Part shown: positions 24,041-27,722 of the stretch, piece after piece
How positions within the stretch are numbered: the first letter of the stretch is position 1
How the letters are laid out: the number at the start of each line of letters is the position of its first letter
Origin: an uncultured Clostridia bacterium
Lineage (GTDB): Bacteria > Bacillota > Clostridia > Christensenellales > Borkfalkiaceae
Direction: 5' to 3'
NCBI GenBank assembly: GCA_944368065.1
Contig: CALVWV010000049.1
Location: 1 to 36,659, forward strand
DNA: 36,659 nucleotides
Made by a program: the position numbers and the translations under genes
Notes under the pieces: model-generated
Seen by the model: the letters and a program-made list of their open reading frames with translations, nothing else
Told to the model about the DNA's origin: nothing
The model's database searches: none

Positions 24041-24613
24041 CTACACCCTGCCTTCCGTCCCGCTTAAACTCTGCGGCAGATATACGCGGATGAACTTTAC
24101 CGCCTGAACGCAGTTCACGACGTACTTCACGCTCTTTTTTATAGGCTTATCCAGGCCGCTTGCAAGGTAAAAAGTGACTTTGCCGTAATTGAGATTGCCC
24201 GAATAAGCCCAGCCGTTCACAAGAAAGGCAAGTTTTGCGGGCGTGGCCTTTACATACACCACGTCGCGCGCGGCAAAATATTCGCGCGTGCCGTTTTTAT
24301 GGCAAAGAACTATGAAGCCGTCCTCGCGGTAGGCTATCGTATACGGCGGCGCATTTGAACTTACGCTGACATCGGATATGGCGCGGCGGAAAACGAGGAC
24401 GCACAAAACGCCGTCGGCTGCAATAAGCACGACGGTTATCGACCAGAAAAGCGCGGGGATATCCTGCAGAAAGAGCACGTTGAGCGCCTGAACCAGCACG
24501 ATGAGAAAAATATTTATGAGGATTGCAAGAAACACCGAACCGGTGATCGCCTCGTTTTTGTTGATTGTCACCCTGCCCGCAAGCGGGGTAAGCTTTATGC
24601 CGTCCTCTGTCAT
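24041..24613 (-). CDS. Unknown membrane protein with two TM helices
   Basis: I do not recognise this 190-residue protein. It has a short N-terminal cytoplasmic part, two TM helices (about 24-48 and 54-75), and a 110-residue soluble tail with alternating beta-like stretches (YTIAYREDGFIVLCH, REYFAARDVVYVKATPAKLAFLVNG). This resembles the general layout of membrane-anchored PH-like domains, but no signature is visible. The ATG at 24613 is five bases from GAGG. It has its own consensus promoter. No neighbour hints at its job. Confidence 0.7.
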   Translation of the reverse strand: MTEDGIKLTPLAGRVTINKNEAITGSVFLAILINIFLIVLVQALNVLFLQDIPALFWSITVVLIAADGVLCVLVFRRAISDVSVSSNAPPYTIAYREDGFIVLCHKNGTREYFAARDVVYVKATPAKLAFLVNGWAYSGNLNYGKVTFYLASGLDKPIKKSVKYVVNCVQAVKFIRVYLPQSLSGTEGRV

Positions 24614-24645
24614 TCCAGCCTCAACGAAGTTACATTACGGGTATA

Positions 24646-24674
24646 ATTTTATCACCGCCGCGGCTATATGTCAA
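24646..24674 (-). promoter_or_regulatory. Promoter of the two-TM protein
   Basis: On the minus strand TTGACA (24674-24669) and TAAAAT (24651-24646) are separated by 17 bases. The start lies about 25 nt before the gene. Confidence 0.8.
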
Positions 24675-24719
24675 ACGGCGGAATTAAATAAAAATTACCA
24701 CAATTTTTGCATAATGCGC

Positions 24720-24761
24720 GTTCCGGGGCGCGTTTTTGCACCCAAAAACGCGCCCCGGAAC
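24720..24761. other. 18-bp perfect hairpin between two transcription units
   Basis: Bases 24720-24737 pair exactly with 24744-24761 around GCACCC. The plus strand tail is CAAATTTTTA; the minus strand has no T tail. It lies between the STAS gene's terminator and the next promoter, possibly as an insulator. Confidence 0.55.
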
Positions 24762-24791
24762 AAATTTTTAATCTTGTTGCGTTCAAAAAAT

Positions 24792-24831
24792 AAAAAATGC
24801 GGAAAGAAATTCAAACTTTTGCCTTTCCGCA
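24792..24831 (-). terminator. Terminator of the STAS gene
   Basis: TGCGGAAAG pairs with CTTTCCGCA (24798-24806 with 24823-24831). On the minus strand it is followed by TTTTTTATTTTTT. Confidence 0.8.
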
Positions 24832-24849
24832 AACAAATAAAGCCGCCCC

Positions 24850-25152
24850 TTATACGGCTTTTACCACATTCATGAGCGTTGTCACGCCCTGCTCTTCAAG
24901 CCTGTCGTATAATTCTTCTTTTACGTTGACCATCGTAAGATCCGAACTCCCGAGCTTCTTTTTTGTGGAAAGAAGAAGCATGAGCCCCTCGTTTGCAAGG
25001 CGGTCTACCCCGCCGAAATCTACGGTAAGTTTTTTGACCCCGTCGAGATTGTTCTTCAAAAACGCCTCGGTTTCAGGTACGCATTCCGCGCACATATCGC
25101 CTTCGAGCCACAAGTAAAGATTTTCACCTTCCCGTCTGCTTTTTATTTCCAT
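24850..25152 (-). CDS. STAS-domain protein, anti-anti-sigma-like, no phosphorylatable Ser
   Basis: The 100-residue protein is a stand-alone STAS domain: an N-terminal strand pair (NLYLWLEGDMCAECVPETEAFLK), then LTVDFGGVDRLANEGLMLLLSTKKKLG, then NVKEELYDRLEEQGVTTLM. This is the shape of SpoIIAA/RsbV-type antagonists of anti-sigma factors. In those, the central loop reads D-S-S-G with a regulatory serine. Here it is A-N-E-G (53-56), so the usual kinase/phosphatase switch should not apply. GGAGG lies five bases before the ATG. No anti-sigma kinase or sigma gene is adjacent. It has its own promoter, divergent from the large RNA gene. Confidence 0.75.
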   Translation of the reverse strand: MEIKSRREGENLYLWLEGDMCAECVPETEAFLKNNLDGVKKLTVDFGGVDRLANEGLMLLLSTKKKLGSSDLTMVNVKEELYDRLEEQGVTTLMNVVKAV

Positions 25153-25209
25153 TCACACCTCCGCGGCGCATCTTTATTTTGCCGCCGCAAACCTTGAAAA
25201 AGCTATGTT

Positions 25210-25238
25210 AATATAAACCAATTGCGCCCGTTTGTCAA
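25210..25238 (-). promoter_or_regulatory. Promoter of the STAS gene
   Basis: On the minus strand TTGACA (25238-25233) and TATATT (25215-25210) are separated by 17 bases. The leader is about 50 nt. Confidence 0.8.
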
Positions 25239-25423
25239 CCGTTTTGCAATAAAACAGTACAGCCATTGCAAAAATTACGACGCAATCCGACAAAAAAATC
25301 TGCGAAGCGTGCCAATCCACGCGCACGCGCGCGACCTTTTATACGCGCGCTCCGCGCCCCCGTGCGCATATATTGCAGGTAGCACAAAATACATTTTTTT
25401 GCCTATTTTTTTTGATTTGCCTA

Positions 25424-25451
25424 TTGACAAACTGATTTTTGATGCTATAAT
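25424..25451 (+). promoter_or_regulatory. Strong promoter of the large RNA gene
   Basis: Perfect TTGACA (25424-25429) and TATAAT (25446-25451) are separated by 16 bases on the plus strand. The preceding 40 bases are T-rich, like an UP-type region. Transcription would begin near 25458. Confidence 0.85.
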
Positions 25452-25483
25452 GAAAGTACAAAAAAGATAAAAACAAACAAAAA

Positions 25484-25500
25484 ATGTTAGCGCTAAACAT
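25484..25500. promoter_or_regulatory. LacI-type palindrome just downstream of the RNA promoter
   Basis: ATGTTAGCGCTAAACAT has a perfect TTAGCGCTAA core centred on CG, as in operators of LacI-family repressors. It is at about +26 of the RNA gene. It could equally be the first hairpin of the RNA. Confidence 0.4.
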
Positions 25501-25644
25501 TTTAACGAATAAACTAAAAGAGGTTAAAGATGAAGTTCAAGTAGCCCCGAAAGGGGGTCAATGTTATACCGCAGAGCGGACAGCTTAAAGCGAACCGCCC
25601 GTTAAGATATAAATTGAATAGCAAAGCAAGGAGGTAAAAGAAAA

Positions 25645-25736
25645 ATGACGAAAAGGAAATTTTACTTCTGCAAAGCTACTACGTATGCAAGGAGGGTAGT
25701 CCAATGAACAGCGTTACCCGGGAGACCTTATTCTGA
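25645..25736 (+). CDS. Two overlapping mini reading frames (20 and 10 codons) in the large RNA
   Basis: AAGGAGG (25628-25634) lies ten bases before an ATG at 25645 that opens 20 codons rich in Lys, Arg and Thr and stops at 25705-25707. The stop overlaps, as ATGA, an ATG at 25704 that opens 10 codons to 25736 and has its own AAGGAGGG seven bases upstream. Ribosome sites and a stop/start overlap are what coupled genes look like, but purine-rich structured RNA produces GGAGG by chance, and no family is recognisable. Treat as hypothetical. Confidence 0.25.
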
Positions 25737-25889
25737 AAACACGGTTTTAATTTCGCAGGGATTTGAATCGGGTTTCAGAAATCGGGTCTGAAAGCCGCCG
25801 AGCCGCAAGGAAGATAAGCCGCGCGGGGCAATCCCGAACAATTTTTAAAGTAAAATTTCAGACGACCGCAACCGGATGGAGATATTCGG

Positions 25890-25949
25890 ATGAAGAATTT
25901 TAAAGACCCTGAAAGAAGGGATTTTCAATTCCGGATAAGAAGATTCTGA
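25890..25949 (+). CDS. Mini reading frame of 19 codons in the large RNA
   Basis: The ATG at 25890 has GGAG eight bases upstream and overlaps, as ATGA, the stop of a 5-codon frame starting at 25876. The 19 residues are strongly charged (many Arg, Asp, Glu, Phe). There is no recognisable family; it may be a chance frame in the structured RNA. Confidence 0.2.
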   Translation: MKNFKDPERRDFQFRIRRF

Positions 25950-26199
25950 CGGACGGGGAATTCAAGATAATTTGCCCGATTATTAAAATTTGAGCGCGGA
26001 AGCGAGAGATTGAGCGATAAACTTTGCAAAGGTTTGCTTCACTCCCCTTAGAAGCCTTAAAGCGAGAACGCAAGTAAGACGCGACGGAAGAAAGCTAAGA
26101 GATTCTACCTGTATGGCGTTTGCCGCAAGTGCATATAAAGCACCGTAAAAAAAGCGGAAGCGGGTCTCGAAATTAAAATTTAATAACTTTGAAAACAAT

Positions 26200-26229
26200 A
26201 CCTGCGCAGATGTAATTGCGCAGGTTTTT
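26200..26229 (+). terminator. Terminator of the large RNA gene
   Basis: ACCTGCGCA (26200-26208) pairs exactly with TGCGCAGGT (26217-26225) and is followed by T5. This is the end of the plus-strand RNA unit. Confidence 0.85.
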
Positions 26230-26230
26230 G

Positions 26231-26799
26231 TGCCCAAGCTGCCGAATAACGGGGCGAGGCGCGCATCCCCCCACCGCTCTGACGTATGCGGATTCAGCCG
26301 AGCGAACGGCACGAAAAATATATTTGCACGGAAAAAGGCAAAAAGTTGCGCCGATTGTAGAACGACTGCGGGCGGACGGCAAGATTTACTCCACCCGGAT
26401 CATCGCGCGAAATAGTTTTACAAAAAGCGGATTAGCGGTACGGCGCACGGGCTATATTTTTCCGAAAGTGCGGAAAATATCCGCAGAACGCGCATATTAT
26501 GCGCCACTTAAGCACTAACCGTTGTGAAACGGCTATTCCATGAACAGAAATTCTCACAGTACGGGTTTTAATAAGCCCTGCCGCATAAAGACGGCTGCAA
26601 AACAAAAGGTGAATGCGCAGTGCGGAAACGGAAGCGCTGCGGGCAATCGGGAAGCCCGCTGAAATCCGCACAGTTTTATCGGGGTATATAGTCCTGGCGG
26701 GATAGTTCTCCTCCCGCCACGGAATGACTGGTCTGTGTAGAGGTATCCCCCGCGGGATGTAAATCCCGCGGGGGATACTGATTTTTTATTATTTAATCT
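26231..26799 (+). ncRNA. Second gene-free structured block, possible RNA
   Basis: About 570 bases between the large RNA and the YfbR-like gene carry no credible protein gene. The last 180 bases are clearly structured: GTGCGGA/TCCGCAC enclosing GCGGGC/GCCCGC (26620-26672), then TGGCGGG/CCCGCCA (26694-26718) inside AGTC/GACT, and a strong terminator (26743-26785). Other small hairpins are at 26518-26532 and 26561-26580. I find no promoter for it, so it may be read-through from the large RNA or an unrecognised RNA gene. It does not match tmRNA, RNase P, SRP or T-box features that I can recall. Confidence 0.35.
26743..26785 (+). terminator. Strong plus-strand terminator
   Basis: GTATCCCCCGCGGGAT (26743-26758) pairs with ATCCCGCGGGGGATAC around a 4-base loop and is followed on the plus strand by TGATTTTTTATT. 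It shows that plus-strand transcription reaches this point. Confidence 0.8.
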
Positions 26800-26928
26800 A
26801 AACTTTAAACGTTGCCGAATTGCATTTATGCAAACAACAAGTCGCGCGGAATTTTTTCCGCGCGACTTGTTTACATTCAATTTGTTTATGCAGCAATAAG
26901 TATCAGATTTACGCGCATTCCTGCGCGC

Positions 26929-27522
26929 TCAGTCCACGATGCCTTTTTCCAGCTCGTCCAGCGTAAGCGAAAAAGCCGGAATAAATTTTTCCATGAAGTA
27001 ATCGACCGCGGGCATTTTGCGGGATACAATATCGTCCTTTATGCTCTTTTCCGCCTTTTCAAACTCAGTGTTGCCGCAGCGGCGCTCTTCAAGGCACTTG
27101 ATGTATGCAGAAAGTCTGTCCGCCGCCTTCACTATCCTCCACTCCTCGCTATTTGTATCGGGCTTGACAAACGGCGACAGCTCCTCTTCGAGCTCGGGCG
27201 GGAGGGTAGCCAGAAGCTTATCGCAGGCGACGCTCTCTATATCCTTGTACGCGCCCGTAATCGAGCGGTTGAAATACTTTATGGGCGTAGGCAGATCGCC
27301 CGTGAGCACTTCGGAACACTCGTGATACATCGCATAGAGCACGCACTTTTCCGCATCCGTCTTTCCGCCGAAAAGCTTGTTGTTTATAACGGCGAGCGCG
27401 TGGGCGATAAACGACACCTGCTGGGAATGCTCCATTATATTTTCTTCGCGGACGGAGCGCATGAGCGACCAGCGCTTTATATACTTCATTCTGTCCATAA
27501 AGGCATAAAAATTATACGACAT
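26929..27522 (-). CDS. YfbR-like HD-domain 5'-deoxynucleotidase
   Basis: YfbR removes the 5' phosphate from deoxynucleoside monophosphates in the cytoplasm. The 197-residue protein has the specificity pair Arg 17-Trp 18 (KRW), EHS with His 32, YHECSEVLTGDLPTPIKYFN (His 67, Glu 71, Asp 76) and KAADRL (Asp 135), in the positions known for E. coli YfbR. The second residue of the HD pair is Glu 68 instead of Asp, an unusual change in a metal ligand. The frame is open to 27717, but the ATG at 27522 has GGGAG nine bases upstream and gives the usual length. It diverges from the TPP-riboswitch unit. Confidence 0.88.
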   Translation of the reverse strand: MSYNFYAFMDRMKYIKRWSLMRSVREENIMEHSQQVSFIAHALAVINNKLFGGKTDAEKCVLYAMYHECSEVLTGDLPTPIKYFNRSITGAYKDIESVACDKLLATLPPELEEELSPFVKPDTNSEEWRIVKAADRLSAYIKCLEERRCGNTEFEKAEKSIKDDIVSRKMPAVDYFMEKFIPAFSLTLDELEKGIVD

Positions 27523-27647
27523 AAAAATTAACTCCCGCGCGCAGATTAAAAGGCGCGCTGCAACAGCTGTATTTATATATAATGCAGCGCGAGCACGCGC
27601 GCAAGCTTTACAAAATAAATTATAATACATTTTGCATTCAAATTCAA

Positions 27648-27676
27648 TTGACTTAAACGTTGTTTTGCCATATAAT
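27648..27676 (+). promoter_or_regulatory. Promoter of the TPP riboswitch-thiT unit
   Basis: TTGACT (27648-27653) and TATAAT (27671-27676) are separated by 17 bases on the plus strand. Transcription starts near 27683, about 40 bases before the aptamer. Confidence 0.85.
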
Positions 27677-27722
27677 TTTTTTAAGTTGCAGGCAAAGCAC
27701 TGCGGCAATTTCAACAAATAAA

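Follow-up and report, generated by a model that had tools for sequence, protein, structure and literature searches.

What is made from a plus-strand unit of some 770 nt that has a promoter and a terminator of its own and no protein gene of normal size? Such a unit (Table 1) lies in the window analysed here, a stretch of 36,659 nt that forms contig C49 of the 1.70-Mb draft genome (83% complete) of an uncultured Clostridia bacterium. The evidence from its relatives leaves us with next to no doubt that it is a real, stand-alone and conserved RNA gene. Its features point to an RNA that pairs with a second copy of itself and is engaged by ribosomes at very short reading frames, one of which overlaps a covarying helix.

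The initial annotation had described the unit as bounded by promoter and terminator, rich in purines and structured, and all of this is borne out. The sigma-70 promoter matches the consensus at 12/12 positions, the only one to do so among the 6 promoter-like sites in 24600–27000 (shuffled mean 3.3), and a comparable promoter lies upstream of relatives in three genera. The same interval holds 8 terminator-like sites versus a shuffled mean of 4.4, so that a single such site is weak evidence; the terminator is, in addition, kept at the equivalent place in relatives. The inferred transcript of 773 nt has a purine content of 60.7% (25458–26230) versus 48.3% for the window. Its minimum free energy is −199.1 kcal/mol (z = −3.1), a value as low being reached in 0/20 shuffles, and covarying base pairs are found among 50 relatives (see below). 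The longest ATG/GTG/TTG frame on the plus strand that lies wholly within the gene encodes 46 aa from a TTG start; the frames overlapping its ends encode 82 and 100 aa on the plus strand and 109 aa on the minus strand. ARAGORN detects no transfer RNA (tRNA) or transfer-messenger RNA (tmRNA) in the window. The absence of a protein gene, also claimed at the outset, holds for proteins of normal size and misses three micro-open reading frames (micro-ORFs) of 4, 20 and 10 codons, each led by a Shine-Dalgarno (SD) sequence.

A DNA search of 151 genomes of the bacterial family matches 35, of which 15 (own genome included) belong to the window's genus, here g1; the best matches retain both ends of the RNA, with the middle absent or varied. 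Model R1, which covers the first ∼ 100 nt and was built from 12 sequences including that of the window, matches 79/93 genus genomes at E ≤ 0.1 and 55/61 of the good ones. Matches in G175 and at one place in G211 were judged false by eye and left out before features of the relatives were counted (G211 has a further match at C14). Two weak R1 matches in a further genus of the family, g9, are true relatives once read; those in G010 and G329 were rejected after reading. Searching with a g9 copy (E ≤ 0.001) matches 84/103 g9 genomes and 52/60 good ones, many of the matches being short, and 30 g9 loci were read. A pattern for the leader (≤ 3 mismatches) occurs in 63/301 family genomes and 3/18 genera (reversed control 0), and through it the third genus, g3, was found, of which eight loci were read; this pattern misses the leader of the window itself, which has diverged too far. 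Among 297 genomes of the order, 16 carry the pattern (reversed control 1/297), and four of these matches, outside the family (L278–L281), are ordinary gene starts on reading. Since the g9 and g3 relatives emerged from weak R1 matches and from the pattern, a model that stays silent does not show that the RNA is missing from the other genera. The RNA family is unmatched in a phage collection and a plasmid collection, and a scan of viral contigs for one exact pattern gives zero matches. Among named genomes, a pattern scan finds 42 stretches in bacteria titled Clostridia, Clostridiales or Eubacteriales; Candidatus Coproplasma excrementipullorum is among the carriers. The genus Candidatus Coproplasma has been described from chicken gut and placed in Christensenellales, Borkfalkiaceae (PMC8035907), and we infer that the window comes from this genus and that the carriers are mostly gut bacteria. 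A gene present in 55/61 and 52/60 good genomes of two genera likely matters to them.

Could the RNA be a divergent form of one already described, such as OLE, GOLLD, ROOL, tmRNA or 6S RNA? Size and complexity are all that speaks for this. Against Rfam 15, at the gathering cut-off and at E up to 5, no family is found, the only matches lying far below the cut-offs, and the OLE, GOLLD and ROOL models fail to match even at E = 5. Across 18 related loci, Rfam gives only below-cut-off matches and one tRNA (in L225). The genome's over-cut-off tmRNA match (RF00023) lies at C28 and its only 6S RNA match (RF00013) at C33, both outside the window. We regard such an origin as exceedingly improbable. The initial annotation had left the choice between a divergent OLE, GOLLD or ROOL member and a new family: the former gains nothing from the Rfam comparison, and the latter agrees with absence from Rfam 15 and with conservation and covarying pairs in relatives. 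A new RNA family in Clostridia related to Candidatus Coproplasma is thus well supported. In the open-licence literature we found no description of such an RNA; surveys of structured RNAs may include part of the family outside Rfam 15.

The size of the window's RNA is peculiar to its clade. In the 12 genomes of this clade (64–85% identity) a 5′ part of ∼ 310 nt and a 3′ part of ∼ 130 nt are conserved, and the ∼ 300–400 nt in between are hardly alignable. Counted from the start of the model through the last base of the terminator stem, lengths are 638–773 nt in the clade and two near kin, whereas 33 of 37 short-form members (the other members in which a script located the terminator close behind ORF3) measure 300–470 nt (median 407, range 284–695). 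A length of ∼ 770 nt is therefore a feature of the clade and not of the family.

The leader hairpin carries a self-complementary loop (Table 1). An anchored loop finder shows that this 7-nt loop contains a 6-nt palindrome in 76/77 genus genomes, the lone one without it being G191 (AGCTGGC). Twelve kinds occur, each with at least 4 G/C: GGTACC (23 genomes), AGCGCT (18), GCGCGC (15), GACGTC (5), GCTAGC (4), GGCGCC (4), GTGCAC (2) and, in one genome each, ACGCGT, ACCGGT, CGTACG, CGCGCG and TGCGCA. The loop of G194 is GCGCGCG, for which GCGCGC is an equally valid reading, and the 12 kinds may therefore be 11. A 7-mer of such make-up holds a palindrome with a chance of 3.3%, and elsewhere in these RNAs 569/17941 7-mers do; the loop counts come from related genomes. 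Eleven or twelve kinds imply at least ten changes through which self-complementarity was retained. A loop of 7 nt leaves a 6-nt palindrome scarcely any way to pair inside its own molecule. The simplest interpretation is thus that two copies pair with each other, and we consider it very probable from these patterns that a loop–loop contact makes the RNA a homodimer.

Palindromes just past a promoter are characteristic of repressor sites. The palindrome here likewise lies just past the promoter, and where it has the AGCGCT form, in the window's clade, it extends as DNA to the 10-bp TTAGCGCTAA, as might be expected if it served as an operator for a dimeric protein and not as an RNA kissing loop. 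An operator would, however, sit poorly with a 6-mer that varies among 12 kinds between constant flanks, and with a palindrome whose centre, in a 7-nt loop, is offset by half a base from that of the stem arms. One pair of the stem itself covaries, from A-U to G-C in 3/12 sequences, and in G139 and G159 a new stem surrounds a loop of unchanged design. We therefore think an operator very unlikely and retain the loop–loop contact.

Downstream of the leader hairpin lie the micro-ORFs. A 4-codon ORF1 of the form M-[KTR]-[YFDGE]-[KT] is found in 60/77 genus genomes, and the GNRA hairpin after its stop has two of four pairs changed on both sides among 12 sequences. ORF2 of the genus has 10–20 codons and often resembles MKRLYFARTNEVKGR; ORF3 often resembles MYKFTGEI. 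In g9, ORF1 reads MDR, MNK, MHK or merely MH or MG, ORF2 resembles MRIFQGLKIK and has its SD in the loop of a hairpin, and ORF3 resembles MYHDMIGAET. The g3 copies have four to seven micro-ORFs (nested starts counted), for example MIPSHLEANA, MIYIPTSKRYFNKEDKAR and MNFTCEECK. SD-led ATG frames of ≤ 30 codons number 3.04 per RNA in 77 g1 RNAs versus 0.40 after dinucleotide shuffling, 2.62 versus 0.47 in 29 g9 RNAs and 5.0 versus 0.84 in eight g3 RNAs; nested starts are counted apart here, which inflates L262. SD-led micro-ORFs of 2–20 codons thus occur at 5.6 to 7.6 times the shuffled frequency in the three genera. On this sequence evidence the micro-ORFs are probably translated.

Three further observations concern these elements. 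In many g9 copies (L198–L227) a 7-bp hairpin, CATATCG-GGAGGTACAA-CGATATG, carries the SD of ORF2 in its loop and the start codon in its 3′ strand. In all three genera the start of ORF3, and often that of ORF1, is preceded by CTCC[AG]ATG, AGTCCAATG or ACGCCAATG; for the CC of this motif, the GG of the SD slightly upstream is a possible pairing partner. The G073 copy (L015, ∼ 1550–1900 of the locus) contains some three to four repeats of the unit made up of ORF1 and GNRA hairpin.

If the micro-ORFs are translated, the RNA might be a tiny polycistronic messenger, the micropeptides being its product and its structure merely tuning translation and stability. Conservation of SD, start and stop across three genera is consistent with this, as are a ratio of non-synonymous to synonymous polymorphism (pN/pS) of 0.71 for ORF2 (58 genomes), where the other frames give 1.00 and 1.06, and recurrent peptide motifs (for instance LYFA...E.KGR in g1, KRYFNKE.K.R in g3). 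ORF1, on the other hand, sometimes has only two codons (MH, MG, MN) and is then too short to be a likely product; the peptides are little conserved between genera, and column shuffles lend them weak support. Moreover, the end of ORF2 doubles as the next SD and the end of ORF3 as one strand of helix a (see below), so that placing the ribosome may outweigh the peptide. We judge a messenger unlikely, if worth serious consideration.

The opposite extreme would be a noncoding scaffold or nanostructure RNA of the ornate type, with reading frames that are by-products of SD-like purine-rich loops. Its stand-alone nature, purine richness, homodimer-type loop and covarying multi-helix domain would all suit such an RNA. 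The excess of SD-led frames over dinucleotide shuffles in all three genera does not, nor does the order ORF1–ORF2–ORF3, preserved by most of the members read in g1 and g9, and we rate a pure scaffold as distinctly improbable. The likeness to giant ornate RNAs drawn in the initial annotation survives in part: the RNA is stand-alone, structured and probably homo-oligomeric, whereas its size does not characterize the family and it is not purely noncoding.

The 3′ domain was analysed in alignment A2, which comprises 50 of the 77 genus members, all short-form and aligned without structure. It excludes the window's clade and kin (14 genomes), nine members with a longer middle, G053, and G149, G163 and G164, in which the ORF3 site was not found by the pattern used. 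A structure of 21 pairs in 6 helices is paired in 90.3% of alignment cells versus 81.0% after shuffling. Its covariation score is 0.357 versus 0.196 shuffled, reached by 0/500 shuffles, which ignore relatedness; slid versions score ≤ 0.150. The strongest helix is helix a, formed between ORF3 and the 3′ end of the domain. Each of its six pairs covaries among the 50 relatives, with both sides changed in some genomes; all six pairs are present in 37/50 and five of six in 8 more, and 0/2000 shuffles reach the observed pairing, the helix having been noticed by eye in some sequences before the test. In the near kin G097 it reads GGGAAC with GTTCCC. Model R2, made from A2 for the 3′ domain, matches 38/301 family genomes, all of the window's genus.

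A second helix, b, would cross helix a and so create a pseudoknot. Within the window's clade and kin (14 genomes), 13/5000 permutations reach its observed pairing, and G182 shows an exchange of C-G for U-A. In G182, G152, G178, G153 and G154, the 5′ strand pairs equally well or better with the 3′ strand of the window than with their own. We retain helix b as a candidate in the window's clade.

These features suggest a structural model in which a stand-alone, self-associating, ribosome-engaged regulatory RNA has its fold gated by translation; judging from sequence, we hold this to be about as probable as not. The RNA would be strongly transcribed and abundant, and two copies would pair via the palindromic loop. 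Ribosomes would begin translation at the micro-ORFs, only to terminate immediately. A ribosome on micro-ORF 3 would keep helix a open and its partner strand free and, in the window's clade, would also keep the candidate pseudoknot open; when initiation drops, helix a and perhaps the pseudoknot would close. The open and closed states may then bind different partners in trans (ribosomes, a protein or other RNAs). Because the window has no same-strand gene downstream of the RNA, the output would have to be in trans, and that a translation-gated fold acts in this way is a possibility to which we lend somewhat less credence. More tentatively still, and doubtful at present, the RNA may represent a new type of RNA machine, dimeric or of higher order, whose row of minimal frames, some with just two to four codons, solely holds ribosomes, ribosome traffic setting its three-dimensional state. 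If true, the machine would be a stand-alone RNA that senses or stores translating ribosomes, and two genera or more would carry it in most of their genomes. To our knowledge, the functions of large stand-alone bacterial RNAs are largely open. The link between micro-ORF and covarying helix, if shown, would give a trans-acting RNA a means of reading the translation state. The dimer contact can be read in sequence as 12 interchangeable palindromes and is directly testable with paired loop mutants; few natural RNA homo-oligomers are known according to one account (PMC7357161).

Several observations weigh against a translation-gated, self-associating RNA. Concerning the loop, the AGCGCT form is operator-like in its extent as DNA (see above), and no palindromic 7-nt loop of this kind is evident in g9 and g3, where the leader hairpin is shaped differently (some g9 loops carry TTTCATGAAA). 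The 4-codon form of ORF1 is absent in 17/77 genus genomes, and the micro-ORF peptides differ between genera. Their coding signal is weak: the pN/pS of ORF2 is equalled by 9/300 column shuffles (97/300 in the window's clade and kin), and for ORF3 the corresponding figures are 27/300 (codons 2–6) and 31/300 (codons 2–8). As for the fold, further pair types in the A2 structure are not above shuffles (87/500), helix a is invariant within the window's clade of 12, and R2 matches neither the window's genome nor its clade, the window's middle being much longer. Helix b lacks support across the genus (163/2000 shuffles).

The RNA might instead be a leader or attenuator acting in cis on a neighbour. 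The longest upstream frame is one divergent gene in 52/77 genus genomes (4 of the 77 are without upstream flank), identified by Pfam as Na_H_Exchanger in the one tested. This Na+/H+ antiporter gene could be such a neighbour; being divergent it is, however, off the transcript, which has its own terminator. The window's genome (83% complete) has no match to it at E ≤ 1e-20, and antiporter and RNA are on separate contigs in G009, G042 and G055, three of three g9 genomes compared. The longest downstream frames in relatives vary in kind and strand. For its position off the transcript and the separate contigs, we reject the antiporter linkage as function and see in it neighbourhood only; a cis-acting leader is highly improbable. 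A stand-alone RNA gated by translation remains our preferred reading.

Table 1. Positions in the window of the RNA gene, its elements and its neighbours.
Feature	Positions	Strand	Remarks
RNA gene	25458–26230	+	start inferred ∼ 7 nt past the −10 element; ends with the terminator
Sigma-70 promoter	25424–25451	+	TTGACA 25424–25429, 16-nt spacer, TATAAT 25446–25451; TG precedes the −10 element
Candidate kissing hairpin	25482–25502	+	stem AAATGTT/AACATTT; 7-nt loop AGCGCTA 25489–25495, palindrome AGCGCT
SD of micro-ORF 1, GAGG	25520–25523	+	
Micro-ORF 1, ATG AAG TTC AAG TAG	25530–25544	+	MKFK, 4 codons
Hairpin CCCC-GAAA-GGGG	25545–25556	+	directly after the micro-ORF 1 stop
Hairpin GCGG...CCGC	25576–25598	+	G152 and G180 have other pairs here
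SD of micro-ORF 2, AAGGAGG	25628–25634	+	
Micro-ORF 2, MTKRKFYFCKATTYARRVVQ	25645–25707	+	20 aa; stop overlaps the micro-ORF 3 start (ATGA)
SD of micro-ORF 3, GGAGGG	25691–25696	+	
Micro-ORF 3, MNSVTRETLF	25704–25736	+	10 aa
Helix a, 5′ strand GAGACC	25722–25727	+	within codons 7–8 of micro-ORF 3
Helix b (candidate pseudoknot), 5′ strand TTTTAATTTCG	25745–25755	+	
Middle part	25760–26080	+	poorly conserved, peculiar to the window's clade; 59% purine
Conserved 3′ domain	26106–26168	+	short hairpins
Helix a, 3′ strand GGTCTC	26163–26168	+	
Helix b, 3′ strand CGAAATTAAAA	26168–26178	+	base 26168 common to the helix a 3′ strand
Intrinsic terminator	26200–26229	+	stem 26200–26225, 10 pairs including one G-U, then T's
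STAS-domain gene	24850–25152	−	neighbour of the RNA gene; Pfam bit score slightly below cut-off
YfbR-like nucleotidase gene	26929–27717	−	next gene downstream of the RNA gene

Upstream of the RNA gene, a very strong terminator-like hairpin of 19 bp (24720–24761) separates the frames 24041–24613 and 24850–25152. Downstream, the intergenic stretches 26237–26325 and 26612–26795 (plus strand) match parts of a few genus genomes, and the second has a strong terminator of its own (26742–26779). The stretches are matched in 10/93 genus genomes including the window's own; seven of these belong to its clade, and the matches in G139 and G200 are short and located elsewhere. They are perhaps a second small RNA.

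Elements of the RNA recall several known systems. Translational attenuator leaders and minigenes have very short SD-led reading frames that overlap a helix, as does the RNA described here; unlike an attenuator leader, it has its own terminator and, in the window, no same-strand gene downstream to regulate. RNAIII of Staphylococcus aureus is a stand-alone structured regulatory RNA that also encodes one small peptide. By its sequence, the present RNA is likewise stand-alone and structured with small reading frames, of which it has three or more, some of 2–4 codons, and it has no Rfam match. In the dimerization initiation site (DIS) of HIV-1, a 9-nt loop carries the palindrome GCGCGC or GTGCAC; the loop here has 7 nt, belongs to an unrelated, bacterial RNA and occurs with many palindrome forms. 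In a cryo-electron microscopy paper on OLE, ROOL and GOLLD, palindrome switches in symmetric kissing loops are taken as evidence for homo-oligomers, as where GGCC in the L9.3 palindrome of OLE switches to GAUC or AGCU (PMC12286853). With these three the present RNA shares the character of a large structured bacterial RNA and a symmetric palindromic loop, predicted here from sequence; it differs from them in its shorter core, its SD-led micro-ORFs and a 6-nt palindrome that comes in 12 forms.
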